64,000 nt of DNA. It comes from Citricoccus muralis. Lineage in GTDB: Bacteria; Actinomycetota; Actinomycetes; Actinomycetales; Micrococcaceae. The first letter of the stretch is position 1; each line of letters begins with the position of its first letter. Below, piece after piece: positions 11,353-37,074 of the stretch. The notes beneath the pieces were generated by a model that was given only the letters and a program-made list of their open reading frames with translations, had not been told where the DNA came from and did no database searches. Position numbers and translations under genes: made by a program. The stretch covers positions 1,178,001 to 1,242,000 of the forward strand of contig NZ_CP121252.1 of the NCBI RefSeq assembly GCF_029637705.1, read 5' to 3'.

Positions 11353-11679
11353 ATGTCAGACCAGAAGCGACAGCGTCGCTCTTTCACCCCGGAATATCGG
11401 ATCGAGGCGGCGAATCTCGTCATTGACACCGGCAGGTCTATCGCCGCGGTGGCAAAGGAAATCGGAGTCGGTGAACAGACCCTGGGCACCTGGGTCAAAG
11501 CCGAGAAAGACCGACGCCGCGCCGAGGGTGAACCCACGGGTGCGTTGAACGAGGACGAACGGGCTGAACTGGCACGGTTGAGGCGGGAGAACTTCGATCT
11601 GAAACAGGACAACGAGTTCCTGGGAAAAGCAGCCGCCTTCTTCGCGTCGAAGCCTCGAAACAAGAGAAATTCGAGCTGA
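11353..11679 (+). CDS. IS3-family transposase OrfA (helix-turn-helix)
   Basis: OrfA has 108 residues with the IS3 N-terminal helix-turn-helix (RRSFTPEYRIEAANLVI, then SIAAVAKEIGVGEQTLGTWV) and a leucine-zipper-like helix (RAELARLRRENFDLKQDNEFL). It binds the terminal repeats. GGAAGG directly abuts ATG 11344, so ATG 11353, nine bases on, is the likely start. Its stop overlaps the orfB start by one base (TGATG). OrfB is in the -1 frame, the arrangement used for programmed frameshifting in this family. Confidence 0.92.
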   Translation: MSDQKRQRRSFTPEYRIEAANLVIDTGRSIAAVAKEIGVGEQTLGTWVKAEKDRRRAEGEPTGALNEDERAELARLRRENFDLKQDNEFLGKAAAFFASKPRNKRNSS

Positions 11680-12587
11680 TGGACTCGGAGAAGGCCCACT
11701 ATGCGATTCGCCGGATGGCCAGGCTCCTCGAGGTGACGAAATCTGGGTACTACGCATGGAAGAAACGTCGGCAGGCCGGGCCATCGAAACGCGCGAGAGC
11801 GCAACGGAATCTTGACGGGCAAGTCGCAGCGGTTCATGCGGAGTCTGATGGTGTCTATGGGGCACCACGGGTGGCAGCGCAACTGGCTCGACAAGGCGTG
11901 AGTGTGGACGAGAAGACGGTCGCGGCTTCGTTGCGCAGGCAGGGCCTTGAAGGCATCAGTCCACGTCGGTTTCGGCCGGTGACGACACTGCCGGGTGTGG
12001 CGACTCATCACATTCCGGACCTCGTGAAACGAGTCTGGGACCGAGGTGAGTTGGATGCTGTGTGGATCAGCGATATTACGTATCTGCGCACGTGGGAAGG
12101 GTTCGTGTATTTGTGCGTCATCCGCGATGGGTGCTCACGCCGAGTGCTCGGCTGGGCGATGGATGCCAGACAAGATTCTGACCTCGTGGAACGAGCGTTG
12201 AGGATGGCTCATACGCTACGAGAAATGGTTCCAGATGACGTCATTTTTCATGCCGACAAAGGAGCGCAGTACACGTCAGCGCAGTTGCATCAGGCCTCTG
12301 TGGAGCTGGGGCTCAAGCAGTCGGTAGGCCGGACTGGAGTGTGTTGGGATAATGCGATGTCGGAGTCGTTCTGGTCATCACTGAAGACTGAGTTCTTCGA
12401 ACGCCGGGTCTGGCAGACTCGGGCTGAGGCGATGCGGGAAGTCGCTCGGTGGGTCGAGGTGGTATATAACCGGCGGCGGTTGCACTCGGCGTTGGGGATG
12501 GTCCCGCCGGTGGAGTTTGAGGAGAAGTTCCGGGCCGAGCACAGTGCCGGCCGGGTTCAGGAGGAAGTGTCTACGCAGGCTGCGTGA
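11679..12587 (+). CDS. IS3-family transposase OrfB (DDE integrase)
   Basis: OrfB has 302 residues with a retroviral-type integrase core. The catalytic residues are the Asp in WISDITYL, the Asp in FHADKGAQYTS, and the Glu in FWSSLKTEFF, spaced as expected for D,D(35)E. The N-terminal YAIRRMARLLEVTKSGYYAW is the usual OrfB start. The -1 frame stays open upstream of the ATG, so an OrfAB fusion by ribosomal slippage near 11650-11677 is likely to be the active transposase. Confidence 0.95.
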   Translation: MDSEKAHYAIRRMARLLEVTKSGYYAWKKRRQAGPSKRARAQRNLDGQVAAVHAESDGVYGAPRVAAQLARQGVSVDEKTVAASLRRQGLEGISPRRFRPVTTLPGVATHHIPDLVKRVWDRGELDAVWISDITYLRTWEGFVYLCVIRDGCSRRVLGWAMDARQDSDLVERALRMAHTLREMVPDDVIFHADKGAQYTSAQLHQASVELGLKQSVGRTGVCWDNAMSESFWSSLKTEFFERRVWQTRAEAMREVARWVEVVYNRRRLHSALGMVPPVEFEEKFRAEHSAGRVQEEVSTQAA

Positions 12588-15336: not shown

Positions 15337-16030
15337 TCAGCTCTGTCCCTGACCGGCCAAAACGGTTGCGTCTTCGTCGGTGATGTCGAGGGTGCGCATC
15401 CGCTCGTCGGTGTCGAACAGCGGTGTCTCAGCGCGCGACCGGTCGTTGGCGACCTCGAAACTCGACTCCCGCAGCCGCCACAGCCCCACCCCTTTATCCA
15501 GGGACTTAATGAGTGCGCGTTCCCGGTCGGAGAGATCGAGTTCGTCCATGGTGACCTTCAACGCGGAAGCGTCTTGGCGGTAGATGACCTTCACATCAGA
15601 ATCTGCCAGCAGTGACCGGGCCATAGCAGCCATCCGAGATTTCTGATCTCCGGCCATATCCAGGTCACTGATCTTGTGCATCACCAAAATGTTGAACAAC
15701 CCATAAGCCCGGGCCAGTTTCCAGGACTCCACCATCCGTTGCAGGTCAGCTTCCGAGGAGATGTTGTCCCAACCCTCTTCATAGATGACCAGCCGCTGAC
15801 CGTAATCACTGTTAGTGATCATCGCCTCCGTCCATGCACCCGCACAGGCATTCACCACGCGCACCGCTTCCGGACTGGCCCCCGACAGCGCTGAAGAATC
15901 GATGGAGACCGCTGGGGCGTTCGGGTCGAAGGTCACCGTGGACTCCCCATCAAACATGCCCGCCAGGTCCCCGCTGGTGATCCTGTGTAGCGTCAGCTCA
16001 AGGTGGCCGGCGGCTTTTGTCAACGGCGGC
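15337..16030 (-). pseudogene. VirB4-like conjugation ATPase, C-terminal half (split by IS21)
   Basis: About 230 residues of the ATPase end remain, including SGDLAGMFDGEST, a Walker-B-like strand RLVIYEEGWDNI with the catalytic acidic pair, and DLSDRERALIKSLDKGVGLWRLR near the end, typical of VirB4/TraC ATPases. The frame continues a few codons into the IS21 end (to 16044), but that is an artefact of the insertion. The Walker A half is at 18182-19063. The halves do not rejoin cleanly: no target duplication is seen, and direct joining is out of frame by one base. Confidence 0.8.
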
Positions 16031-16079
16031 TGAAAAGTGGACATTAATCGACGTCTGAAAACTGGACACTCTGACAGGT

Positions 16080-16865
16080 TCAGGTCGTGATGTTGGTGTT
16101 CTTCTCAAGGAGTTCCCGTCGGGTTCGTGTCCGATAAGACTCTCCATCGAGGGTGAGGACCTCTGAATGATGGATCAATCGGTCAATCATCGCTGCTGCA
16201 ATCGTGTCATCAGCAAAGATCTCACCCCACCGGCTGAAGGGCAGGTTAGAAGTAATGAGCAACGAACCCTGCTCATACCTTGAGGCGACTAGCTGGAAAA
16301 ACAGATTCGCAGAGTCAGCGTCTAAGGGCAGGTACCCGAGCTCATCAATAATGAGTAAGCGGTATCGTCGCAGGCGTTTGATTTCAGCTGCTAATCCTCC
16401 ATGACGCTGATGAGCAACGCTAAGCCTGTTGATCCACCCAGCAGCGGTATCAAACAACACGGGATACCCAGACTGACAGGCCCGAATGCCGAGTCCGATC
16501 GCTAAGTGCGTCTTGCCTACTCCGGGCGGGCCAAGCAAAATCACGTTGTCAGCTTTCGGAATGAAACTCGTGGTCCCTAGATGCGCGATCAGATCACGGC
16601 GTAGGGTTGGCTGAAAATCAGGGTTGAAGTCCTCGAGAGTCTTCATCGCTGGAAACCGGGCGGTGGAAATCCTCAAGCTGGTGCCATTGGCTTCGCGATC
16701 AGCAACCTGACGTTCAAGCACGGCAGCTAAATACTCCTCGTGTGTCCATCCCTGCTCACGAGCGGTGTTGGCCAGTTGTTCCCAGACCTTCGCGATCGTG
16801 GGAGTCTTCATCGCTCGAGCTAGATGTGACAGCGTGGCCCCGATCTTCTCTGGATTGGTCCTCAT
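16080..16865 (-). CDS. istB: IS21-family helper ATPase IstB
   Basis: The 261-residue AAA+ ATPase resembles DnaC: Walker A LLGPPGVGKTHLAIGLG at about residue 110, Walker B LLIIDELGYLPLD, and a sensor-like SLLITSNLPFSRWGEIF. IstB loads on target DNA and recruits IstA. ATG 16865 overlaps the istA stop by four bases, the normal coupling in this family. The gene looks intact, although its partner is frameshifted. Confidence 0.94.
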   Translation of the reverse strand: MRTNPEKIGATLSHLARAMKTPTIAKVWEQLANTAREQGWTHEEYLAAVLERQVADREANGTSLRISTARFPAMKTLEDFNPDFQPTLRRDLIAHLGTTSFIPKADNVILLGPPGVGKTHLAIGLGIRACQSGYPVLFDTAAGWINRLSVAHQRHGGLAAEIKRLRRYRLLIIDELGYLPLDADSANLFFQLVASRYEQGSLLITSNLPFSRWGEIFADDTIAAAMIDRLIHHSEVLTLDGESYRTRTRRELLEKNTNITT

Positions 16866-18113
16866 ACTGCCTCCTGTTCCGTCACCGGCGCCGGTGCAGC
16901 CGGTGCAGATCTCAATCCGAAGAGCTCGTCGTAGACGCTCAGAGGTCGATACGCGACCTCAGTATCGCGCCCGACAGGACGACGTCGGATCTGGTTGTAA
17001 TGGGCTCGGAGCATCTTCGCGGTAGCAACATGACCGGGATCAGTGATCGTTTGCGCGGTGGCCCAACAACGGGGGTGATCAGCAACAGTCTCCCCATCAC
17101 AGACCACGAGAATCCGTTCTAGGGTCGTGGTGACTTGTACCAGTCGCCCGATGTATCGGGGATCCACACTGTAGTCATTGGTATCGACACGAACGTAGTA
17201 GTCCCGGCCTAGTCTGATCTGGAAATTCAACCCGACAGCCGGTGGTGACGGAGGAAGCGCAGTCATAGCTGCTCGATCCTGATCAAGTACATTCACTGGA
17301 CGATCTCCCAGGCTGCGCACGAGTCGTTGATTAGCGCGTGTCTCTAACCACGCTTCCATCTGGGCGTTGAAATCTTGGGGTGAGCCGAAGGTTCGCCCCG
17401 GCAGGAAACTCGTCTCGAAGAACTGGTTATTTCGTTCCGTCATGCCCTTAAACTCTGGGTCTCTGGCCGGAGCGATAATCATCTTGGCCGCGATCGTGCC
17501 GGCGAAGCCTTGGACTGCAGGCAGAGGCTTTCCCTTCGGTGCGATTGCTGCTTCACGGTCCCAGATCAATGACTTGCTCACAGCGCCAACGCCAGTGATC
17601 AGATGCCACATACCTGCCAGCAGATCCCCCGACTGTCTCGAGGGAATCATCCGAGCACGAAGGAATCTACTGAAAGTCAGAGTCATCACTAGCACCGGTA
17701 AGACGCGTACTTGGCTGAACCCCACCGGGATCTTCGGCTCGGGAAACCACAAATCGAACTGGGCAGCCTCACCAGGAGCATGCTCTAACCGGTCCGCTGG
17801 ATCTACCCCGGTATACAAAGGACGGATCTGACGCACGCGATCTTTGAGGATCGTCATCGAATGCTGCCACTGCAAGCGTTCCGCGATAACGAACGGTCGC
17901 TGGCATCCTCGGAGCGTCTTTAAGAAGCTTATGGATCTCTGGGACCACCGCATCTACAATCGAGCCCTTCGACGCTCGTTGATACTTCGGTGGCTCTGTT
18001 GACTCAAGAGCTCGATACACCGTGGTCCGAGAGACTCCCAATCGCTCAGCGATCTGCTTCTTCGGCATCTTCTCCGCACGATGCAGCCGACGGATTTCAG
18101 CCCAATCTTCCAT
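16862..18113 (-). pseudogene. istA: IS21-family transposase IstA, frameshifted by a 4-bp duplication
   Basis: The N-terminal part (MEDWAEIRRLHRAEKMPKKQ, then a helix-turn-helix IAERLGVSRTTVYRAL) reads in one frame up to RMPATV. The rest, starting VIAERLQWQHSMTILKDRV and including the DDE residues (Asp in FDLWFPE, Asp in IWDREAA, Glu in MTERNNQFFE), continues in another. The break coincides with a tandem CGTTCGTT on the coding strand (plus 17888-17895). Removing one CGTT restores the family sequence. ATG 18113 has AGGAGG ten bases upstream; ATG 18122 is too close to it. Confidence 0.88.
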
Positions 18114-18181
18114 AGTGATCATGCCTCCTAGCATGGATGAAACTGTCCAGTTTTCATCCGTCGCTACGTGCCCACTATTCA

Positions 18182-19063
18182 CCCGTCGTCGACAGCTTTG
18201 CGGACCTCGTCCTTCCGCTCAGTCTCGCTGGCCTCGGCAAGCTCATGGATCACGTCTGGGATCACGACCTCCCGGCCCCGCCGCGCAGCAGCATTCACCG
18301 CTCGGTCCAAGCCCAGGGAGAGTGCGTAGCGCTGCTCTGAGTCCATGTCGTGGTTGCCGATCAGGATCTTCACCAGCGTGCCCAGAATTGCCATGCGACG
18401 GGTGCGCACGATCATCGCCCACTCATCATCGCCCATCGGTTCCCCTTTCGGGTTCTGCACCGGACGGTGACCCTCATCCAGTGGGTTCAACCGGTTCCTC
18501 GCCCCGGGACCGACCTGGATCACGACCCCACCTAGGGCGTGGATGACTTTCGTCCACTCACCCTTTTTATCCGAGGGCACCGCCAGCTTCCGCCCGATCA
18601 GGACCTGCCGCACGGCCAAGGACTTCGCCAACGTGGACTTACCGGTGCCAATCTGGCCGAAGAGCATCATCGACATTCCCGAGATGACACCGCGCTTGTA
18701 GAGTTCCCAGGGGTCGAACGTGAACGCGCCACCGCCATTGAGATCCCGGCCGATGTACACCCCTTCGGGTCCCAACGAGGGCCCCGCCACATAGGGGTAA
18801 GCGGTCGCGGCTGTGTGTGCGGTCGTCGGGATGCCCTTGACCGTCAGCGGTCGTGTCCCGCGCAGTGACCTCGGACGATTCTGGCCTCCGGCTGACCACG
18901 CTTGTTTCGGCAGCCCATACTCATCGTCGTTGTTGTCTGCTTTTTTGGCTTCGGCTCGCTGTTTTAGCGCTGCGCGCGTCTGCTTCACCAGCTCACGTCG
19001 AGCTGCACGAGTGTTCTCCGTGAACCCGAAACTGGTCGTGGTTTGATGCTTCGTGCTTCCCAT
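18182..19063 (-). pseudogene. VirB4-like conjugation ATPase, N-terminal half (split by IS21)
   Basis: About 294 residues include Walker A MLFGQIGTGKSTLAKSLA near residue 140, preceded by VYIGRDLNGGGAFTFDPW. The partner Walker B is across the IS21 copy at 15337-16030. ATG 19063 (MGSTKHQ) is preferred over GTG 19075 because a weak AGGTG precedes it at a normal distance. The intact protein would energise pilus assembly and DNA transfer; as it stands no full ATPase can be made. Confidence 0.82.
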
Positions 19064-19103
19064 ACGGACCCACACCTACTTTCTGATTCTTCTTCGTCCC
19101 GGG

Positions 19104-22898: not shown

Positions 22899-23228
22899 TC
22901 AGCTGATCACGGCGACCGCCACCACGCCCCACCCGAGGATCAGGGCCACCGCAGTGACTCCGAGCAATACCCGGCCTTTCACCGTGCACGCCCAGCCGGG
23001 TAGCCGGTGTCCGATCCGATCCGGCAGGGGCGCTTCAATCGTGTGAGTGACCCAAGCGTGTTTTTTCTCATCGAACCAATCCCTTCGGGCCTGTCTCCGA
23101 GCATGCCGTCGCTGTCGCCAAGTCGGGCGGGGCACCATCAGGTACTCGACGAAGACGTCTTCCTCGAGGCCGCGGCCATCTGTGACTGGTACTGGGTGAA
23201 CGTTTCTGGCCTGGTGTTCGTTGTTCAT
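22899..23228 (-). CDS. Small tail-anchored membrane protein of transfer operon
   Basis: The protein has 109 residues. The N-terminal 75 residues are hydrophilic and strongly basic in the middle (RQRRHARRQARRDWF). One membrane helix lies at the end (VLLGVTAVALILGWGVVAVAV). Its ATG overlaps the stop of the sigma-factor gene as ATGA. That coupling to a sigma factor, together with a single helix, would suit an anti-sigma-like or anchoring role, but there is no anti-sigma motif. No family is recognised. Confidence 0.65.
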   Translation of the reverse strand: MNNEHQARNVHPVPVTDGRGLEEDVFVEYLMVPRPTWRQRRHARRQARRDWFDEKKHAWVTHTIEAPLPDRIGHRLPGWACTVKGRVLLGVTAVALILGWGVVAVAVIS

Positions 23229-23940
23229 CGCTTCATCTCTTCACTGCTTTGGTGAGTGGTCGTTTTGTGGTGGTTGAACACGGTGGCCGCGACACGAAGC
23301 AGATGTTGCGTCTGGGCCAGGTACTGGCGTGCCGTGTTGAAGCTGAACCCGGTCACCGCCATCACATCCCCAGCAGTCACGTTGCCCAGCTGTCCACCGG
23401 CCCGGGCCACCAGTAGGCCCATCTGTCCGGCCCAGTTCCCGGACTCGTCACCCTGCGGCAGGCACTCGATCAAGTGCCGCATCGTGGCCGGTCGTCCCTG
23501 CCGCACGGCCTCCTGCGCTTTCACCACAACCTGGCAACACCGCACCAGCTCACGACGAGCTTGCCGCAGCCGGTCCATCGACACCCCTAAAGCCCGGGAC
23601 GCCAGCTCCACATCGTCACCGAAGACCATCAGCAGCGATAGTCCCCGGGCGGTGGATTCGCGATTGACGATGACCTGATTCACCACGGAGAGAATCTCAA
23701 TAAGGGTTTGCCTGGTTTCCAGGCTCATCATCGTCTCGTCGGCGTGATCGTTTTCGGTGATCGAGAGCATCGAGGCTACCCGGGAGGTGGATTCCCGCTC
23801 CGCCCGATGCTGGACATCCAGGTCACGGGAGCGGGAACGCAGCACATCAATAGCGCGTCGTTTCGCGATCACCACCACCCAGGCGTGCAAGCTTGATCCC
23901 TTCGCCGGGTCGAACGATGCTCGTGCCCGCCACGCCGATT
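23225..23940 (-). pseudogene. Sigma-70-like factor interrupted by IS3 copy 2, 3' part
   Basis: This part begins at the IS junction with SAWRARASFDPAKGS and HAWVVVIAKRRAIDVLRSR, the second half of sigma region 2. It then runs through a linker and a region-4-like helix-turn-helix (ELASRALGVSMDRLRQARREL), plus about 90 extra C-terminal residues that include another helix-turn-helix-like stretch (AGDVMAVTGFSFNTARQYL). Joined with 25285-25468 after removing the IS and one GATT, it gives a 299-residue protein of 300 codons. A truncated product from internal starts is possible but would lack most of region 2. Confidence 0.85.
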
Positions 23941-24009
23941 TGAGGCTACCCTCGAATAGTGGACACCCAAGTTAGCGGGATTCGCAGTCCTGCTGGAAGG
24001 ATGTTCAAT

Positions 24010-24336
24010 ATGTCAGACCAGAAGCGACAGCGTCGCTCTTTCACCCCGGAATATCGGATCGAGGCGGCGAATCTCGTCATTGACACCGGCAGGTCTATCG
24101 CCGCGGTGGCAAAGGAAATCGGAGTCGGTGAACAGACCCTGGGCACCTGGGTCAAAGCCGAGAAAGACCGACGCCGCGCCGAGGGTGAACCCACGGGTGC
24201 GTTGAACGAGGACGAACGGGCTGAACTGGCACGGTTGAGGCGGGAGAACTTCGATCTGAAACAGGACAACGAGTTCCTGGGAAAAGCAGCCGCCTTCTTC
24301 GCGTCGAAGCCTCGAAACAAGAGAAATTCGAGCTGA
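24010..24336 (+). CDS. IS3-family transposase OrfA, copy 2
   Basis: The 108-residue protein is identical to OrfA of copy 1: helix-turn-helix followed by a coiled-coil helix, with the stop overlapping the orfB start by one base. The start was chosen as in copy 1, nine bases after GGAAGG. Confidence 0.92.
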   Translation: MSDQKRQRRSFTPEYRIEAANLVIDTGRSIAAVAKEIGVGEQTLGTWVKAEKDRRRAEGEPTGALNEDERAELARLRRENFDLKQDNEFLGKAAAFFASKPRNKRNSS

Positions 24337-25244
24337 TGGACTCGGAGAAGGCCCACTATGCGATTCGCCGGATGGCCAGGCTCCTCGAGGTGACGAAATC
24401 TGGGTACTACGCATGGAAGAAACGTCGGCAGGCCGGGCCATCGAAACGCGCGAGAGCGCAACGGAATCTTGACGGGCAAGTCGCAGCGGTTCATGCGGAG
24501 TCTGATGGTGTCTATGGGGCACCACGGGTGGCAGCGCAACTGGCTCGACAAGGCGTGAGTGTGGACGAGAAGACGGTCGCGGCTTCGTTGCGCAGGCAGG
24601 GCCTTGAAGGCATCAGTCCACGTCGGTTTCGGCCGGTGACGACACTGCCGGGTGTGGCGACTCATCACATTCCGGACCTCGTGAAACGAGTCTGGGACCG
24701 AGGTGAGTTGGATGCTGTGTGGATCAGCGATATTACGTATCTGCGCACGTGGGAAGGGTTCGTGTATTTGTGCGTCATCCGCGATGGGTGCTCACGCCGA
24801 GTGCTCGGCTGGGCGATGGATGCCAGACAAGATTCTGACCTCGTGGAACGAGCGTTGAGGATGGCTCATACGCTACGAGAAATGGTTCCAGATGACGTCA
24901 TTTTTCATGCCGACAAAGGAGCGCAGTACACGTCAGCGCAGTTGCATCAGGCCTCTGTGGAGCTGGGGCTCAAGCAGTCGGTAGGCCGGACTGGAGTGTG
25001 TTGGGATAATGCGATGTCGGAGTCGTTCTGGTCATCACTGAAGACTGAGTTCTTCGAACGCCGGGTCTGGCAGACTCGGGCTGAGGCGATGCGGGAAGTC
25101 GCTCGGTGGGTCGAGGTGGTATATAACCGGCGGCGGTTGCACTCGGCGTTGGGGATGGTCCCGCCGGTGGAGTTTGAGGAGAAGTTCCGGGCCGAGCACA
25201 GTGCCGGCCGGGTTCAGGAGGAAGTGTCTACGCAGGCTGCGTGA
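24336..25244 (+). CDS. IS3-family transposase OrfB, copy 2
   Basis: The 302-residue DDE integrase is identical to OrfB of copy 1, with the same catalytic Asp, Asp and Glu motifs. It is probably made as an OrfAB fusion by -1 frameshifting. With intact ends and intact genes, this copy should be mobile. Confidence 0.95.
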   Translation: MDSEKAHYAIRRMARLLEVTKSGYYAWKKRRQAGPSKRARAQRNLDGQVAAVHAESDGVYGAPRVAAQLARQGVSVDEKTVAASLRRQGLEGISPRRFRPVTTLPGVATHHIPDLVKRVWDRGELDAVWISDITYLRTWEGFVYLCVIRDGCSRRVLGWAMDARQDSDLVERALRMAHTLREMVPDDVIFHADKGAQYTSAQLHQASVELGLKQSVGRTGVCWDNAMSESFWSSLKTEFFERRVWQTRAEAMREVARWVEVVYNRRRLHSALGMVPPVEFEEKFRAEHSAGRVQEEVSTQAA

Positions 25245-25284
25245 CGTGGTTCACGTGTCCACGACTTGCGGGGAGCCCCAGATT

Positions 25285-25468
25285 CCCAGGCGGCCTGCAA
25301 CACGTCCTCCACATCACCTTCCCGACGCTGATCACCCAGAGCATTCACCACGGCTGGGCGGGTCCGTTGAACCGCTTCAGCCAGTACCTGACCATCCAAT
25401 TCATGAGCCCGTGTCACTGCGTCCTGATCCGGTGTTGAAACCTGTTGGACCGTCTCTTGGTTATTCAT
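25285..25468 (-). pseudogene. Sigma-70-like factor interrupted by IS3 copy 2, 5' part
   Basis: ATG 25468 is preceded by AAAGGA at seven bases. It encodes about 61 residues ending GDVEDVLQAAWE, the start of sigma region 2.2, right at the insertion. The continuation at 23940 completes the helix as ...VLQAAWESAWRARASF, a good sigma-70 core-binding sequence. The frame extending into the IS is an artefact. Confidence 0.85.
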
Positions 25469-25495
25469 CCCCGCATCCTTTCCGCGACCCTCGGT

Positions 25496-26626
25496 TCAGG
25501 CGTTGACGCCTCGAACCGATAACGCCCACGCCCGGTGTCGTTCGGGAAGACGGTCGATTTGGTCCTCAGTGAGGTCATCCACGTGAGGAAATGCCTGCCC
25601 CGTTTTCGCCTCACCCCGGCAAGCCCCGCAATTGGTCAGGTCGTATCCGGAACCCCAATGGTCTGGGTTCGTGCACGGCACCGCGTCGGTGTGCACCACC
25701 GGTTGCGTGCCCGGCACGCCGTCAGCTGGTCGCTCATCCGTTGTGGTCTGGGCCGGAGACAGGCTGGCGCGCGCCTCAGCCAGCAGACCAGCCCGGTCGG
25801 CCATAACCGCTCGAGCCACATAACGGGCTGGTGCTTTGACGTGGGTAATTGCTCGATCCAGGACCACGTTGACGACCCGGGCAGCTAAGTCGTAATCGTC
25901 TGCCTCGAGTCCGAGCTGGTCGGTGAGCACATCGAGATCCACTCCTCGATGAAAGATCCGATCATCATCGTCATCATCGATCCGATCAGTTTCGCCCAGG
26001 TCCTGGTGAGCACGTTGGTCAACCGAGGATGATGATGATTCTTGAGGGTTAATCCGCGCGCGTTCCTTATAGTGCCCAAAACGCGAATTTGCGTTTGGGT
26101 CATACGCCAATTTGCGTTTGGGTCCCTCAAACGCAATATTTGCGTGTCGCTCATTCTCGCGGGACGCAACTTCTGCGTCTCGCAAGGGTTCAGGAGACGC
26201 AGATTCTGCGTGTCGCTTATCCTCGCGATACGCAACTTTTGCGTGTGGCTTGTTTACACGGCCCGCAAGTTTTGCGTGTCGCTCATTCTCGCGGACTGGA
26301 GCCTCCTTGCTCGCTGCTCTTTCAGCGGTTTCGGACAGGGTGAATAGGGCTTCTTCTTGCAGGTAGTAGCGCATCCCGATCCGACCACCACCTGGCCCAT
26401 GACGGTCCTCCACCCGGACCAGTCCCAATTTCTTCAACCGACCGATCTGGGTGCTGATCGTGCGCAGCGACTGATTCGTCTCACGCGCGATGGTGTCCTG
26501 CGAGGGCCAGCACGACCACGCCTCATCAGCCATGTCAGCCAGTTGCCATAACACCAGAATCTCTGGAGCCCTGAGAACACCGGTGGCCCCAACCTGACGA
26601 GCCCAATTGATGGCCTGAATACTCAT
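25496..26626 (-). CDS. Replication-initiator-like winged-helix protein with internal 11-residue repeats
   Basis: The protein has 376 residues. Residues 1-90 form a winged helix of the kind found in plasmid Rep proteins (EILVLWQLADMADEAWSCWPSQ, then a recognition segment NQSLRTISTQIGRLKKLGLV). Residues 112-166 are five tandem 11-residue units (pattern R-E-N-E-R-H-A-x-x-A-x), encoded by 33-bp repeats. An acidic run (DDDDDD) and a conserved helical domain (about 230-290) follow. A C-terminal Cys cluster (PCTNP...NCGAC) may bind zinc. The repeats coincide with DNA dyads (see 26081-26277). The Rep role is inferred from this layout; no biochemical motif proves it. Confidence 0.65.
   Translation of the reverse strand: MSIQAINWARQVGATGVLRAPEILVLWQLADMADEAWSCWPSQDTIARETNQSLRTISTQIGRLKKLGLVRVEDRHGPGGGRIGMRYYLQEEALFTLSETAERAASKEAPVRENERHAKLAGRVNKPHAKVAYREDKRHAESASPEPLRDAEVASRENERHANIAFEGPKRKLAYDPNANSRFGHYKERARINPQESSSSSVDQRAHQDLGETDRIDDDDDDRIFHRGVDLDVLTDQLGLEADDYDLAARVVNVVLDRAITHVKAPARYVARAVMADRAGLLAEARASLSPAQTTTDERPADGVPGTQPVVHTDAVPCTNPDHWGSGYDLTNCGACRGEAKTGQAFPHVDDLTEDQIDRLPERHRAWALSVRGVNA
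26081..26277. repeat. Seven iteron-like dyads inside the rep-like gene (candidate replication or partition origin)
   Basis: Seven imperfect palindromes of 14-15 bp with core ACGCAA-N-TTTGCGT start at 26081, 26104, 26131, 26164, 26197, 26230 and 26263. The last five are exactly 33 bp apart, matching the 11-residue protein repeat. Both DNA symmetry and phase are kept although several third-position bases are free to vary, so selection on the DNA itself is likely. Rep genes with binding sites inside their own coding sequence are known in RepA_N-type plasmids. Confidence 0.7.
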
Positions 26627-26946
26627 TGGTCCTCACCTTCTAGCGCGATCACGTATCCGGCCCCAGCAAGCACCGTGGCGTGGTCGAGCGCGTTCATCCT
26701 GGAACCGGGAAGCTGCATGAAATCTGTGACCCGGTGTTGATTCGCGGGAAAGATTAAGGTCTCGCACCCACCATCGGCTCGTTCCACGGCCGAGACCATC
26801 ACGTGCTCGTTCCCGTTCATTGGTGGATTCAGCCGGTAAATCACCGCCCGTCCCACCCCAGGACGAGGAACCTCTCGGACCGGGGCAGCCATCCCATCCG
26901 GAACCTGTCCCCGGGTTACGGGATCATTGATTGCTGGCTTGCGCAT
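26623..26946 (-). CDS. Small hypothetical protein coupled to the rep-like gene
   Basis: The 107-residue soluble protein carries the strand-like stretch GVGRAVIYRLNPPMNGNEHVMVSAVERADG and a LIFPANQH segment. The rep-like gene starts inside its stop as ATGA, and its own start overlaps the upstream DUF2637 gene by 23 bases, so it sits in a tight operon. There are no membrane segments, Cys motifs or recognised domain. It may be a DNA-binding accessory, but nothing shows that. Confidence 0.6.
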   Translation of the reverse strand: MRKPAINDPVTRGQVPDGMAAPVREVPRPGVGRAVIYRLNPPMNGNEHVMVSAVERADGGCETLIFPANQHRVTDFMQLPGSRMNALDHATVLAGAGYVIALEGEDQ

Positions 26947-28084
26947 CCTGGATCACTCCGTCGATGTCGTCATGGTCTTCACTTGGTGTTTCGAACACGT
27001 CTGGCCGGTCGGTGCGTAGCTTCTGCAACCAACGCCGCCCCGTCCGGTCGGAGACCTCGAACTGTTCCGCGATCATCTCCGCAGTGACTTCCACGCCGTG
27101 CTCGGTGTGCTCACGGATGAACTCAGCGGCCGCATCCGGTCCTGTCGCCCGCCCGGGCCCAGTGACCGGCTTGTGTTTACGATCGGGACGATCATCGAGG
27201 TCATCGACCAAGTGGAGCCCCTGTCCGGTCTGTCTAGAGGCTGGACTCTCATCCGGTTCTGTAGCGGCCTTCACCTCCAACGCTCGTCGTGCCCGGACCT
27301 TCTCCAGCTCGGTCGCGTGACGCTCCCGCTCAAGTTCCCGCGCCCGGTCTTCTTCCTCGCGCTCCCACTGCATCCGGCGGGCCAGTTGAGCCTGTTCAAA
27401 TTCCAGGCGTTGCCGCATCTGAGCGTGTTCAACCTGGGCCTGATCCATCAGCGATTGCTGATGCATCTCCGCCCGACGCGAAGCCGGATCTTCTACCGCG
27501 ACCCGTGAGAGTTGTTCTGTGGCCACGAAGATCGCCACCGGAACCATGCCCGCGATGATCGCCCCGACGAGGCCCTGCCAGGACTGTTCATGGGTATGAC
27601 TCAAAGCGTGCGCGGCGTTCGCAAACACGCTGAGTGTGGTGAAGATCCCCAACGCGGCCCAGGAGGGCCACGTTCGTTCACCGCGTGCTTTATGCACGAG
27701 AACGGAGGCCGCGTACACCAGAATCGCCAGATCAATGAACACCGGCACCGCCCACCACATAAACTGTGGCAGTCCCAGCCATTCGGCAACTTCGTAGAGA
27801 GCGGCGAAACTAATTGCGAATGCCACCACCCCAGCGATAACGACGCCGGCCACGACGAGGCGGATAAAGCGCCCATCATCAGGGTTGATCCTCTTCGCAG
27901 TGCGTGCAGCCCGGTGCGGGTGCGTGGTAGTGTCTGAGCCGGAAACAGAGATCCCCGCAAAGATTCCTGTCTTTCCATTGGTGTCCCACGATTCGTCACT
28001 GCTTCGTGGGGCACCGTCTTGTTCCAGGCCTTCTGCCTCTTCGATCAGGCCGTCGTCTGCCAGGGCGTCGTGGTGGCGCGTCAT
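26924..28084 (-). CDS. DUF2637 membrane protein with coiled coil and C-terminal helix-turn-helix
   Basis: The protein has 386 residues. After a 70-residue polar leader come four membrane helices (about 73-185), with the DUF2637 pattern LYEVAEWLGLPQFMWWAVPVFIDLAILVYAA. A long charged coiled coil follows (about 205-260, rich in Glu, Arg and Gln), then a helix-turn-helix-like end (EVTAEMIAEQFEVSDRTGRRWLQKL). DUF2637 proteins occur in actinobacterial conjugative plasmids and integrative elements, where Spd-type spread functions are proposed. The start overlaps the upstream stop by one base. Confidence 0.8.
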   Translation of the reverse strand: MTRHHDALADDGLIEEAEGLEQDGAPRSSDESWDTNGKTGIFAGISVSGSDTTTHPHRAARTAKRINPDDGRFIRLVVAGVVIAGVVAFAISFAALYEVAEWLGLPQFMWWAVPVFIDLAILVYAASVLVHKARGERTWPSWAALGIFTTLSVFANAAHALSHTHEQSWQGLVGAIIAGMVPVAIFVATEQLSRVAVEDPASRRAEMHQQSLMDQAQVEHAQMRQRLEFEQAQLARRMQWEREEEDRARELERERHATELEKVRARRALEVKAATEPDESPASRQTGQGLHLVDDLDDRPDRKHKPVTGPGRATGPDAAAEFIREHTEHGVEVTAEMIAEQFEVSDRTGRRWLQKLRTDRPDVFETPSEDHDDIDGVIQDAQASNQ

Positions 28085-28995
28085 CAGTTCAGTCCTTCCA
28101 GAGCGTTGAGAATCCGCTCGAGGTCATCAATCGCGTCCTGCAAGTTCGTGGTCATCTCGGTCATCGAATGCCCTGCGGTCTTCTGCTCCGTCAGGGGCGT
28201 TTCCATGGACCGAACAACGTAGGAGAGGGTGCGGACCCCGCGGGAGACATCGAATGCCAGCGCCTCGATCCGCTCGCCACTGACCACAGCTTGTCCAGTA
28301 ACGGGGGAGACCAGCCCGGACATCTTCGAAGCAAGTTTGATCGTCATCGGAAGTGCTGCCGACCCCGTGCCGTGGAACTCACGGATTGCCCGCTCGACCT
28401 GCTTCCGATCCTGATCAGCGAGTTGGTCGACATCCAAGGGCTCAATGCCTAGATCTGTGGCCGGCATGTCCAAAACATCCTCGACGGATACTTCCTCGGA
28501 CGCTGGCGCAACCCGGTCGCCCTCACCCGGGACAACGCGATCCTGCTTGCCAGTTTGCGCAGGTTTGGGCTTCGTAGTTGGCCGGTGTTTGCCATCCAAC
28601 CCGAGCACTGTCTCCATACCTGGCGTTTCAGAGGTGCCAACTGTCCCATTTGGGACAGTAGAACTTTGTATCTCGCGGTGCACGGTGTTCTTGCTCAGCT
28701 GCGTGGCTGTCGCGATTGCGCGGACACTCATCCCGGCCTCACGCATTGACTTGATGACTGCAGATCTCTCCTCGAGCGGCGGACGCAGGTAGAGGTTCCC
28801 GAACTCGCGAAGCACATAGTCATCCCACGAGGCGAAGCCGAGAACCGACCACGCCCGACCTCGGTAGGCAGCCTTAATCAGGTGGAAAACTCCCTCAAGG
28901 CCAGTGCGAATCTGATCCGTAAGCTCCCTTGCGGCTTCCGACGAAAGTTGGTCAACGGACACTGATGTCTGCGGCGAATGAACGATAGTTTCCAT
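28084..28995 (-). CDS. Helix-turn-helix protein of ParB/plasmid-maintenance type
   Basis: The protein has 303 residues. The N-terminal helical region (residues 15-80) resembles the segment in actinobacterial plasmid proteins with AYRGRAWSVLGFASWDDY. A helix-turn-helix follows (MSVRAIATATQLSKNTVHREI, about 90-110), then a disordered linker and a C-terminal helical domain (residues 190-300). There is no ParB box or nuclease motif, so the ParB comparison is loose. It is the second gene of the leftward operon, three bases downstream of a small XRE regulator. Confidence 0.6.
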   Translation of the reverse strand: METIVHSPQTSVSVDQLSSEAARELTDQIRTGLEGVFHLIKAAYRGRAWSVLGFASWDDYVLREFGNLYLRPPLEERSAVIKSMREAGMSVRAIATATQLSKNTVHREIQSSTVPNGTVGTSETPGMETVLGLDGKHRPTTKPKPAQTGKQDRVVPGEGDRVAPASEEVSVEDVLDMPATDLGIEPLDVDQLADQDRKQVERAIREFHGTGSAALPMTIKLASKMSGLVSPVTGQAVVSGERIEALAFDVSRGVRTLSYVVRSMETPLTEQKTAGHSMTEMTTNLQDAIDDLERILNALEGLN

Positions 28996-28997
28996 GA

Positions 28998-29252
28998 TCA
29001 GCTCACCACCAAGTTCCCTGCCGCCTCAGCGGAGAACTCCTGTTGGACATTGGCGAGGATTGTGCCGAGATCGATTCCAAGCAGTTCGCAGATGGTCAGA
29101 AGTTCGGATAGGCGAAACTCGACACGCCCGTGAAGCCTTGCTGAAAGTGCGTTCTGCGGTAACCCGATTGCGCGTGCTGCTTGCGTTTGTGTGACGTCGT
29201 TTCTGCTGAGCTCAGCCATGAGATTGGCTCTCAGCTGTCGTTGATACCTCAT
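28998..29252 (-). CDS. XRE-type helix-turn-helix regulator, first gene of the leftward operon
   Basis: The 84-residue protein has a Cro/C1 helix-turn-helix (VTQTQAARAIGLPQNALSARLHGRVEF) followed by the usual last helices (LSELLTICELLGIDLGTIL). ATG 29252 (MRYQRQL) is chosen over the longer frame to 29324. A -10-like TACGCT lies six bases before it, which predicts a leaderless message. A perfect palindrome AGCGTAAACGCT overlaps that -10 and is a likely autoregulatory operator. It is divergent from a second XRE gene at 29362, like an immunity/excision switch. Confidence 0.78.
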   Translation of the reverse strand: MRYQRQLRANLMAELSRNDVTQTQAARAIGLPQNALSARLHGRVEFRLSELLTICELLGIDLGTILANVQQEFSAEAAGNLVVS

Positions 29253-29361
29253 AGGTCTAGCGTAAACGCTCAGCCTATAAATGCAAGAGCATTTATCTGC
29301 TGAGCCTCGATTCGTGTCGCCCACCGTATCTTTCAGAGGCTAGACGAGGTATGGTGGTCGC
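29253..29361. promoter_or_regulatory. Divergent switch region between two XRE regulators
   Basis: Leftward: TACGCT (29264 to 29259) six bases before ATG 29252, inside the perfect palindrome at 29259-29270. Rightward: TATGGT (29350-29355) six bases before ATG 29362. Both genes therefore look leaderless. The two-repressor layout suggests a decision region for the element. Confidence 0.55.
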
Positions 29362-29691
29362 ATGACAGTCGTAGATGGAGATCGCAGCACTCTAACCACT
29401 GGGCAACGGGTAGGCGCCGAAGTTCGAGCATGGATGGCTCGCTTAGGCGTCCGGCAGAAGGCTGTCGCCGAATTGCTCCAAATTGCTCAGCCGGGAGTCT
29501 CTGCACGACTTCGTGGTCAAGTTGCCTTTGATGTGGAGGAGCTCGCGCTAATTGCGCAGGCGTTTAATATTTCGCTAGGTGAGTTGCTGGGCAATTCCCT
29601 GGTTAACGAGAAAAGCCCCCGCCCCGCGATGCGGGACGAGGGCTTTGACGAGCTCCCCCGGCTGGACTCGAACCAGCAACCCTTCGATTAA
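29362..29691 (+). CDS. XRE-type helix-turn-helix regulator reading into the tRNA-Asn locus
   Basis: The 109-residue frame has residues 15-80 as an XRE domain (VRQKAVAELLQIAQPGVSARLRGQVAF, then LALIAQAFNISLGELLG). From about residue 82 on, the codons run through the tRNA-Asn terminator and the 3' half of the tRNA itself. The native C-terminus is therefore probably lost or replaced at the element boundary. The domain is complete, so the protein may still work. Start ATG 29362 has a TATGGT six bases upstream. Confidence 0.7.
   Translation: MTVVDGDRSTLTTGQRVGAEVRAWMARLGVRQKAVAELLQIAQPGVSARLRGQVAFDVEELALIAQAFNISLGELLGNSLVNEKSPRPAMRDEGFDELPRLDSNQQPFD
29611..29646 (-). terminator. Rho-independent terminator of tRNA-Asn
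   Basis: On the minus strand, a GC-rich hairpin (AAAGCCCTCGTCCCGC, loop, GCGGGGCGGGGGC) is followed by TTTT, seven bases after the tRNA 3' end. It lies inside the frame of the XRE gene on the other strand. Confidence 0.85.
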
Positions 29692-29725
29692 CAGTCGAAT
29701 GCTCTGCCAATTGAGCTACGGGGGA
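29653..29725 (-). tRNA. tRNA-Asn (anticodon GTT)
   Basis: The full cloverleaf is visible on the minus strand: a 7-bp acceptor stem (TCCCCCG with CGGGGGA), TAGCTC D-stem start, anticodon loop CTGTTAA with GTT, T-loop GGTTCGAGTCC, and discriminator G. No CCA is encoded. It lies at the right end of the conjugative element and its 3' end points toward that element, the geometry of a tRNA used as an attachment site. Confidence 0.95.
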
Positions 29726-34916: not shown

Positions 34917-34965
34917 TCCGCCCCGCTCTCATCCAGGTCTCATCGAGGTGCGGCACACTGAGACC

Positions 34966-35460
34966 ATGAGTCGAAATTCTGCCGTTTCTCGGGCCTATCC
35001 GTGGGTGAGCATTGCCAGCGTGGTAGCGGTGATCGTCGCCGCCGCGGCGATCATCGTGACGCTGTCGACCGCCAGCCCGGGCACCGTGGACCTGGGCCCC
35101 TCGGTCTCGGTGAGTGACGAGCCCACGGACACGGGAAACCAGCCGTCGTCGATGGCCAGTGAGTCGGAATCCGCATCCGCCTCCGCCACGGAATCAGCAT
35201 CCGAGACCGCGTCATCCTCGGCCAGCGCCACCGCCTCGAAGACGGCCACGACTCCTGCCGCCACCACCAGTTCCGCCCCACCTCCGGCCACCAAGGCGCC
35301 GTCCACGCCGCGCGCCGTGCCCGAACCGGCACCGTCTCGTGCCCAGACGCAAACCTGGGATGACGATGATGATGATGACGACTGGGATGATGACGACTGG
35401 GATGATGACGATGACGATGACGATGATGACTGGGACGACGACTGGGACGATGACGACTGA
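34966..35460 (+). CDS. Membrane-anchored protein with Ser/Thr/Ala linker and Asp/Trp tail
   Basis: The protein has 164 residues. One N-terminal membrane helix lies at about 14-36 (VSIASVVAVIVAAAAIIVTL). A Ser/Ala/Thr-rich stretch and a Pro-rich stretch to about residue 125 follow. The last 34 residues consist only of Asp and Trp, with five Trp spaced by runs of 8, 4, 10, 3 and 4 Asp. The tail should be outside the cell and would bind divalent cations or cationic peptides. The histidine kinase starts 21 bases downstream, so a sensing partnership is plausible. GTG 34948 is an alternative start. Confidence 0.75.
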   Translation: MSRNSAVSRAYPWVSIASVVAVIVAAAAIIVTLSTASPGTVDLGPSVSVSDEPTDTGNQPSSMASESESASASATESASETASSSASATASKTATTPAATTSSAPPPATKAPSTPRAVPEPAPSRAQTQTWDDDDDDDDWDDDDWDDDDDDDDDDWDDDWDDDD

Positions 35461-35481: not shown

Positions 35482-37074
35482 GTGAGCGCAACTTCCACTC
35501 GACGATCGACCAGCGCCTGGGGTCGGTTCACCGTGCGCACCCGCGTGGTGATTACCCTCGTGGTACTCACCGTGGCCGCATTGACCGTGACCGGCCTCAT
35601 CTCCTACGGTCTGCAACGCACCGACTATCAGCAGCGCATTGATGACTCGCTCACGCGTACGGTCGACGAGGTGCGCATCCTCGCCCAAGAGGGGGTGGAC
35701 CCGGGCACCGGGGAGCCGTTCGTGGAGTCGGACCAGATGGTGTACGTGGCCATGCTGCGGCACCTCCCCCGCGCCACGGAAGGCATGCTCGGCATGAACT
35801 CCTCGGGCGTCGTGTGGACAGCTAACTCCTCGGTGCCGTTGCGCCTCGAGGACGACCGCGAACTGGTAGCCCAGCTGATGAACCGCGTGGGCCCGGACTC
35901 CCGCGCCGAAGTGGTGCTCGAAACGATCACCACCTCCACCACGGACTATCGTGTGGCGATCATTCCCATCTCCTTCCCCGACGACGCAGAGCCCTCCGTA
36001 ATGGTGGTGGCGGAGGACCAACGCGCTGCATTGCGCGCACTGGACAACACGTTCCTCACCTACGCTGCCACCGGACTCGGGGTGATGATCGTCGCCGGAC
36101 TCATCGGATCTCTGGTGGTGGGGCGGCTGCTGGCTCCGCTGCGGGTGCTGCAGTCGACGGCGGCCGAAATCTCTGGAGATGAGGATCTCGACCGCCGGGT
36201 GCCGATCGGTGGTGGTGATGATGTTGCCCGGCTGGCCGAAGACTTCAACGCCATGCTGGACCGGCTCTCCAGCAGCTTCGCCTCGCAGCGGCAGTTGCTC
36301 GACGACGTCGGGCATGAGCTGCGCACTCCTATCACCATCGTGCAGGGTAATCTGGAGCTGATGGATCCCAACGATCCGGCCGATGTGGCGCAGGTCCGCG
36401 ATATCTCCCTCGACGAGCTCGACCGGGTCACCCGCCTCACCGAGGATCTGGTGACGCTGGCCAAATCGAACCGGCCCGACTTCGTCACCCCGCGCCCGAT
36501 GGACGTCGCGACCCTCACCCACGCCGTCGCTGAAAAGGCCGCACGACTGGGCCCGCGCGCCTGGATGGTGGAATCCGTGGCCGAAGTAGTGCACGAATTG
36601 GACGAACAGCGCATCACTCAGGCGTGGCTTCAGCTGGCCAATAACGCCGTCAAGTATTCTGAGCCGGATACCGAGGTGTGGATTGGCTCGCGGGTGGAAA
36701 ACATTGGCGGCCCGGTGCACGTCGTCGCCGACTCCCCGGAGGTCACCCTGCCCGGCCAGACGCCTGCACCCACCCCGGCCAACGGGCGATGGCTGAGTCT
36801 GTGGGTGACCGACCGCGGCATTGGGGTGACCGCCGAAGACGCCCAGCGCATTTTTGAACGTTTCGGTCGCGGCGGAAACTCGTCTCGGGCCGAAGGTTCC
36901 GGGCTGGGGCTGAACATTGTGGTGGAGATCGCCCGCGCCCACAGCGGTACCGTGTCGGTGCGTTCCACGCCCGGTGTCGGCTCCACGTTCATGATGCATT
37001 TGCCACTGACCGACCAGCATTCCCCCCTCGACTCGGCCCCTGGCCCGACCGCCATTTCAGGAGGACATTCGTGA
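35482..37074 (+). CDS. Two-component sensor histidine kinase
   Basis: The protein has 530 residues. TM1 at about 20-43, an extracytoplasmic sensor domain to about 190, TM2 at about 192-214, then HAMP. The phosphoacceptor His278 lies in LLDDVGHELRTPITIV. The N box (LANNAVKYS), D/F box (TDRGIGVTAEDAQRIFERFGRG) and G box (GSGLGLNIV) of the ATPase follow. GTG 35482 is preceded by AAGGTGG. It overlaps the response-regulator start by four bases. The signal may involve the Asp/Trp-tailed protein encoded just upstream. Confidence 0.94.
   Translation: MSATSTRRSTSAWGRFTVRTRVVITLVVLTVAALTVTGLISYGLQRTDYQQRIDDSLTRTVDEVRILAQEGVDPGTGEPFVESDQMVYVAMLRHLPRATEGMLGMNSSGVVWTANSSVPLRLEDDRELVAQLMNRVGPDSRAEVVLETITTSTTDYRVAIIPISFPDDAEPSVMVVAEDQRAALRALDNTFLTYAATGLGVMIVAGLIGSLVVGRLLAPLRVLQSTAAEISGDEDLDRRVPIGGGDDVARLAEDFNAMLDRLSSSFASQRQLLDDVGHELRTPITIVQGNLELMDPNDPADVAQVRDISLDELDRVTRLTEDLVTLAKSNRPDFVTPRPMDVATLTHAVAEKAARLGPRAWMVESVAEVVHELDEQRITQAWLQLANNAVKYSEPDTEVWIGSRVENIGGPVHVVADSPEVTLPGQTPAPTPANGRWLSLWVTDRGIGVTAEDAQRIFERFGRGGNSSRAEGSGLGLNIVVEIARAHSGTVSVRSTPGVGSTFMMHLPLTDQHSPLDSAPGPTAISGGHS

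Follow-up and report, generated by a model that had tools for sequence, protein, structure and literature searches.

Origins of replication that lie inside the gene for their own initiator are already known, including that of one HTH_36 plasmid initiator, from pPR9. In phage lambda (J02459), the annotated iterons of ori-lambda occupy codons 117-145 of O and are read in three frames. In the RepA_N plasmid pSK41, Rep boxes in the middle of rep are bound by the N-terminal winged helix, and the central protein linker is dispensable (PMC5703833). The initiator of pPR9 (pPR9/pUSA03 type) carries an HTH_36 N-terminus (pfam13730) on a RepA_N-type protein; the block covering the RepA_N domain and the origin differs between pPR9 and pSK41, and the pPR9 region still replicates (PMC5703833). 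In repABC replicons oriV lies inside repC, for which the accessible part of the source gives no iterons or DnaA boxes (PMC3155836). HTH_36 (PF13730) proteins are also described, in the part of the report available, from the replication regions (Eru types) of non-lambdoid Stx phages (PMC8951638). Among actinobacterial elements, the accessible descriptions of BreLI and RUSTI hold that they are thought to transfer single-stranded DNA (PMC6579920, PMC5526665), and a mycobacterial prophage study, in its available portion, says only that an origin may be in repA or ahead of it and describes no repeats (PMC7157519). In the accessible parts of the open-access literature, subscription papers lying mostly outside that scope, we found neither an initiator-origin arrangement of the kind described below for actinobacterial conjugative elements nor a residue-base rule for HTH_36 initiators. 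Within the literature searched, the conjugative-element setting and the residue-base rule thus appear new.

The window, by which we mean the whole 64,000-nucleotide stretch of Citricoccus muralis DNA that was analysed, contains a gene for a 376-residue protein with short palindromes (dyads) in its coding region (Table 1). We regard it as quite likely that this protein initiates the replication of an integrative conjugative element, that the dyads are its iterons and that the origin sits within the gene itself, on the pattern of lambda O. An intragenic origin had been proposed in a sequence-only reading of the locus, and it gains support from the O-like profile, the lambda parallel, linker DnaA boxes in some homologues, and the occurrence of the same gene cassette on circular plasmids. 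That reading had drawn its comparison from RepA_N plasmids; closer than the classical RepA_N initiators are the O-like initiators of phages and, among plasmids, the HTH_36 type of pPR9. RepA_N plasmids differ in the N-terminal family, the window protein being HTH_36 by Pfam scan, with no RepA_N (PF06970) and no lambda-O family. Lambda shares the 'O-like' initiator profile class and a similar position of the iterons in the gene, but it is a phage, whereas the window gene belongs to a conjugative element, has an only weakly AT-rich linker and encodes zinc-site-like residues in its C-terminal part. Compared by description, the staphylococcal pPR9/pUSA03-type initiators have the same Pfam domain and differ in C-terminus and host phylum; the Eru-type proteins, also compared by description, differ in that the available part of their report names no iterons or intragenic origin (PMC8951638). 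RepC shares an oriV within the initiator gene and differs in the repeats, as far as its source is accessible; one homologue of the window protein (L011) has a weak N-terminal similarity to RepC (E 0.0055, which falls well short of the family cut-off). BreLI and RUSTI differ in that such an origin or initiator is absent from the accessible part of their descriptions (PMC6579920, PMC5526665).

Table 1. Features of the putative initiator gene and its surroundings (positions in the window)
Feature	Position	Strand	Basis or remark
Putative O-like/HTH_36 replication-initiator gene, 376 aa	25496..26626	-	ORF, HTH_36 1.1e-14, PHROGs profiles
Winged-helix DNA-binding domain, residues 20-90	26357..26569	-	HTH_36 and high-confidence model
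Recognition helix, residues 54-66	26429..26467	-	helix in predicted model
Residue 59 (Thr), predicted base-reading residue	26450-26452	-	top residue-base pair of 407
Dyad 1 (putative iteron)	26263..26277	.	15 bp, codon 117
Dyad 2	26230..26244	.	15 bp, codon 128
Dyad 3	26197..26211	.	15 bp, codon 139, perfect 7/7
Dyad 4	26164..26178	.	15 bp, codon 150
Dyad 5	26131..26145	.	15 bp, codon 161
Dyad 6	26104..26117	.	14 bp, codon 170, other frame
Dyad 7	26081..26094	.	14 bp, codon 178
Tract just 3' of dyads, candidate unwinding/loading element	26027..26071	-	TATAAGG, then CGCGCGCG-GATT-AACCCTCA-AGAATCATCATCATCC; putative function
Second folded domain, helical, residues 222-290, candidate partner-binding domain	25757..25963	-	pLDDT and conservation
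Zinc-site-like C-x4-H ... C-x2-C stretch, residues 317-337	25616..25678	-	invariant residues
Cassette genes upstream of initiator gene	26623..29324	-	Pfam/ORF list and recurrence in loci
Small ORF	26623-26946	-	upstream of initiator gene; no match in homologous loci
DUF2637 gene	26924-28084	-	beside initiator gene in 11 loci
HTH protein	28084-28995	-	beside initiator gene in 11 loci
Cro/C1-type gene	28998-29324	-	upstream cassette
Element end, likely attachment site	29362..29725	.	divergent xre gene 29362-29691 (+), 3' end overlapping tRNA-Asn 29652-29725 (-)

The seven 14-15-bp palindromes first noted from sequence alone in the winged-helix gene are indeed there, between codons 117 and 182. 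Dyads 1-5 start exactly 33 bp apart and encode five 11-residue units (HAKLAG, HAKVAY, HAESAS, DAEVAS and HANIAF), again as described earlier, and six of the seven dyads have a reading frame in common. Between five and seven of the seven possible pairs are complementary in each, and only dyad 3 is perfect. A site-picking algorithm picked five sites and missed dyads 6 and 7; a consensus scan counts seven sites in the stretch.

In order to gauge chance, the consensus ACGCA-N4/5-TGCGT was counted in codons 111-190. With at most one mismatch, the seven sites compare with a mean of 2.50 after synonymous shuffling (1 of 5000 shuffles reaches seven) and of 0.37 when codons are resampled from neighbouring genes (0 of 5000). 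With no mismatch there are four sites against 0.69 expected (7/5000 synonymous shuffles), and with two mismatches seven against 4.63 (91/5000). In generic tests of the window gene, inverted repeats with perfect 6-bp arms number 3 vs 0.42 expected (P 0.013), inverted 8-mer pairs 10 vs 4.1 (P 0.037) and out-of-frame 8-mer pairs 10 vs 0.9 (P 0.001). Scanning the window against plain dinucleotide shuffles gives a weaker signal (12 matches vs a mean of 3.24, with 1 of 100 shuffles as high). Genome-wide, the dyad motif occurs 22 times forward and 22 times reverse, window dyads included, vs 26 and 28 for a reversed-pattern control.

The protein itself carries the vague label 'helix-turn-helix domain protein', which on the origin reading would become an initiator with its target written in its own gene. 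HTH_36 covers residues 22-70, and the N-terminus matches the PHROGs profiles phrog_1032 'replication initiation protein' (2.4e-17) and phrog_391 'replication initiation O-like' (2.8e-15). The predicted structure has a mean pLDDT of 68.4, which is unevenly distributed: the ten 10-residue blocks spanning residues 1-100 reach 86-97, residues 110-218, which hold the dyad-coded linker, are unfolded in the model (pLDDT under 50), and the blocks at 221-290 average 86-94 in a second domain conserved among homologues. In the zinc-site-like stretch, H323, C333 and C336 are invariant in 12 aligned homologues and C318 in a 7-sequence alignment. A PDB fold search was uninformative, returning generic winged helices, with the N-terminal domain of DnaD at rank 42, and the solved structures matched by sequence belong to transcription regulators, none with E below 0.02. 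The 50 BFVD fold matches listed include one putative replication protein O and a single putative replicon initiation protein, and the named ones are mostly phage helix-turn-helix proteins.

The earlier proposal that the DNA rather than the peptide is conserved is strongly supported across homologues, which alter both sequences. Most retain linker dyads with other letters, for example CCCGCCA-ATT-TGGCGGG (L005), CCCGACA-N3-TGTCGGG (L006), CGGACAC-N-GTGTCCG (L011), GGGGACA-N3-TGTCCCC (L045) and GTGCAGA-A-TCTGCAC (L057); L002, L013 and L052 offer weak candidates only. One dyad is often read in two or three frames within a single gene (L011, L046, L057, L062, L063 and others). These altered letters and frames indicate that the DNA is the conserved thing, and they contradict the outcome that would have spoken against it, namely a protein repeat kept by homologues while the palindromes are lost. 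Rows left out of these comparisons were L016 (partial contig), L017 (start misplaced), L051 (hybrid reading frame), L053 (no matching ORF), L058 (near copy of L057), L065 (short gene) and, in the residue-59 set, L084 (near copy of L083).

The sequence-only reading had also called for a nucleotide-level comparison of homologues, and here linker dyads exceed synonymous nulls and their letters track the encoded recognition helix. In 26 genes, synonymous codons were shuffled inside each region (HTH part, linker and C-terminal part). Linkers hold 564 inverted 8-mer pairs vs 122 expected (significant in 22/26 genes) and 552 out-of-frame direct pairs vs 38 (25/26). The HTH part has no overall excess (inverted 62 vs 60, 2/26 genes; out-of-frame 9 vs 13, 0/26), and the C-terminal part has some (inverted 301 vs 202, 5/26; out-of-frame 150 vs 68, 7/26). 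With perfect 6-bp arms required, the null test gave an uneven picture in 25 genes: 47 vs 13.1 in linkers, 35 vs 15.3 in C-terminal parts and 12 vs 7.2 in HTH parts. Twelve further O-like genes, chosen by protein or profile similarity with dyads disregarded, pass for out-of-frame repeats in 9 cases and for inverted repeats in only 2, so that not all of the wider class shows perfect symmetry; their linker total of inverted pairs (148 vs 41.8) comes mostly from one gene (L077, 86 pairs). The origin part of lambda O passes the out-of-frame test (18 vs 1.42, P 0.0005) and just misses the inverted-repeat test (2 vs 0.4, P 0.064), while its HTH part (codons 1-110) has an inverted 8-mer excess (10 vs 2.0, P 0.0035); the inverted test alone therefore cannot pick out origins. 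The HTH profile of the window family fails to detect lambda O (E 0.052 for the full sequence; the best domain, E 0.16, falls at residues 135-143 and so not in the HTH).

A comparison of half-sites with recognition helices suggested a simple rule: arginine at residue 59 goes with C three bases from the dyad axis, and other residues go with A. The 34 odd-gap genes that suggested it, with eight even-gap genes left out, contain no exception (34/34; 16 and 18 in the two classes). Most of these genes had been inspected beforehand and only newly fetched genes count as a test, for which the rule and its thresholds were fixed in writing before use on genes from IMG/VR and class-wide genomes. From 109 loci, 17 were excluded (7 duplicates, 5 without an HTH hit, 5 with too short a linker); 42 of the 92 usable genes were strong, and leaving out the 10 even-gap genes among them gave 32 test genes. 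Several of these are near copies of each other, and another newly fetched gene, L103, shares its HTH with L019 from the set that suggested the rule. In these 32 genes, Arg-C occurs 14 times, Arg-A once, non-Arg-A 14 times, non-Arg-G three times and non-Arg-C never; that is, Arg59 is paired with C in 14/15 genes and C with any other residue in 0/17. Newly fetched genes with weaker dyads fit less well (Arg-C 21/28; non-Arg with A 7, G 4 and T 1 of 12).

We then asked how residue 59 and base 3 rank among all residue-base pairs. Of 61 genes kept, 44 served as representatives under 70% HTH identity, half of them (22/44) newly fetched. These fall into 18 Arg-C, one Arg undecided, 20 non-Arg-A, three non-Arg-G, two non-Arg undecided and no non-Arg-C. 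The pair 59 x base 3 is the strongest among 407 (z 10.9); next come 56 x base 2 (z 7.0) and 55 x base 5 (z 6.5), and all three residues are in helix 54-66. A near-minimal pair shows the same switch, with GGTCTCA beside Arg59 and GGTCTAA beside Asn59 in proteins of 79% HTH identity (16 aligned differences). A tree was built with residue 59 withheld, and 3/61 genes were dropped for want of a majority base or of the residue. Each of the two traits changes 10 times on it, and the five well-supported independent pairs are all in agreement, where a sign test with five pairs has a floor of 0.0625.

As residue 59 predicts base 3, the encoded protein very probably reads the dyads of its own gene, and direct binding of the winged helix to these dyads is the simplest reading of the covariation. 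Across related elements and phages the protein and its target dyads change in step, and the pairing can partly be read from sequence. We lean towards a broader version, in which HTH_36/O-like initiators, whether from phages, plasmids or conjugative elements, would share a readable code (Arg59 for C at half-site base 3, otherwise A or G, with 56-base 2 and 55-base 5 as further terms). Origins behind the helix could then be located and typed from sequence alone, incompatibility groups would shift by paired helix-iteron switches, and actinobacterial single-strand-transfer elements would thereby replicate as plasmids. The rule would also make origin recognition, incompatibility and the coupled evolution of a protein and a DNA site written in shared bases testable by single-residue swaps. 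Even-gap dyads occur in nine Arg59 genes of class-wide genomes (L168, L172, L173, L182, L185, L188, L189, L192 and L195), with half-sites that contain GCCGCA in eight of the nine; these lie outside the rule as stated.

Winged helices that bind short dyads are typical of repressors, and the initiator gene stands just upstream of transfer genes in most loci, so that the protein might be a transcription regulator and the dyads operators repressing its own operon or the transfer genes. We consider this improbable. In 13 loci, 50 cognate dyads lie inside linkers and 26 elsewhere, vs 26.9 expected by chance; the dyads are confined to the linker, and the lack of an excess outside speaks against an operator network. 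The profile matches, moreover, are to initiators. A partition or stability site, centromere-like and bound either by the O-like protein or by the neighbouring HTH protein (28084-28995), is a shade less probable still: tandem dyads near plasmid-type genes are compatible with a centromere, but the dyad letters track the helix of the O-like protein, and phage O-like genes have like linker dyads with no DUF2637 gene annotated within about 2 kb, which makes the O-like protein itself the more likely reader. Each dyad could form a short hairpin in the mRNA and act in attenuation or decay control; such hairpins are not expected to covary with a DNA-binding helix, and we give this very little credence. 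That the repeat is a protein feature, five flexible in-frame 11-residue units with dyads as a side effect of codon choice, is already contradicted by the same dyad in different frames of one gene (L011, L046, L057, L062, L063) and by counts beyond the synonymous nulls, and is the least credible of all.

With the origin reading thus preferred, we infer a tentative course of events. After excision, the winged helix would bind the dyads, probably with one subunit per half-site, and the dyad array would probably be wrapped. The AACC(N)TCA / TCATCATC tract beside the dyads, or a nearby stretch, would open, and the helical domain and zinc-like tail may help bring in the helicase or primase of the host. 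The linker peptide would be largely a by-product of iteron DNA. Against the origin reading, the window linker is only mildly AT-rich (0.47 vs 0.41 for the gene).

Many linkers contain further short words. The word AACCNTCA occurs 28 times in the linkers of 19/31 genes vs 5.9 expected, in all three frames and with one occurrence on the opposite strand, and CGCGCGC occurs 25 times (19 genes) vs 4.4; that a AACCNTCA/CGCGCGC tract acts in opening or loading is a guess. Strand-biased AACCNTCA repeats lie behind the iterons in the linkers of L003 (there as AACCACCA), L013, L045-L049, L054, L063 and others. As a general element of O-like origins AACCNTCA was rejected, being rare in the 12 further genes (2 vs 0.54). 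Exact DnaA boxes (TTATCCACA) number seven in the linkers of 5/31 genes (L012, L014, L015, L019, L054) vs 0.88 expected, all on one strand and in dyad-holding linkers; the HTH and C-terminal parts of the 31 genes have none, and neither does the linker of the window gene.

If the origin reading is true, a conserved class of actinobacterial conjugative elements gains a located origin and initiator, which would explain how such elements could persist after excision or as plasmids. The gene is present in one copy in the source genome, and a search of 295 Micrococcaceae genomes, including its own, found matches in 17, from 9/32 genera. No close relatives were found by a single-protein search of genome and viral contigs or by an alignment-based search of viral contigs, and blastn of the dyad region against plasmids returned nothing. 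A sigma-70-like gene, the same one throughout, comes next after the initiator gene in 12/16 widely fetched loci, and nine of those 12 cassette loci continue with SCO6880 and other transfer genes; L037 and L038 end soon after the initiator/sigma-70-like genes, and in L028 the 10 kb after the initiator gene has no match to membrane, SCO6880 or VirB4-like genes. Ahead of the initiator, 11/12 cassette loci have the DUF2637 gene and the HTH protein, the sequence of L043 beginning within the gene. L039-L042 match the HTH gene alone.

The same cassette is found on two circular plasmids of 61 and 95 kb, from Arthrobacter and Pseudarthrobacter (NZ_CP015735 and NZ_CP047899), and on both the gene next to the initiator is annotated sigma-70-like. 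On the 61-kb plasmid a Pfam search of ten further proteins turned up no replication initiator, but this plasmid has 48 annotated features and PLSDB assigns replicon tags to both plasmids. The window element contains conjugation genes, including a member of the SCO6880 family (6.2e-54); by reading, others appear VirB4-like and VirD4-like, in line with the plasmid annotation. At the right end of the element, the overlap of the tRNA with the end of the divergent xre gene recurs in 10/11 scanned homologous loci (Asn 7, Lys 2, Met 1), which fits tRNA-targeted integration. A repeat of 83 nt (71/83 identical) lies 50 kb from the tRNA-Asn end, at genome position 1157472-1157534, and is possibly the second attachment site. 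It adjoins an hsdM-like ORF with a shortened methylase domain. Six ORFs tested at the far (left) end include no integrase, and the left boundary of the element is uncertain.

Two insertions have damaged the element. An IS3-type element (ORFs 23959-25244) sits in the sigma-70-like gene after the initiator (23225-25480) and cuts it in two, as an IS21-type element (about 16080-18182) does in the VirB4-like gene (15337-19075); in both cases both pieces match the homologue, which for the sigma-70-like gene is intact. With the VirB4-like gene split, conjugation has probably been lost in this strain, and with two genes split the element looks decayed, so that the origin may be silent here. A second IS3-type copy, by eye with the same 302-aa ORF, is found at 11679-12587. 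Elsewhere in the window, an ORF at 34948-35460 ends in a long Asp/Trp low-complexity run and is followed, at 35482-37074, by a gene that by reading resembles a sensor histidine kinase.
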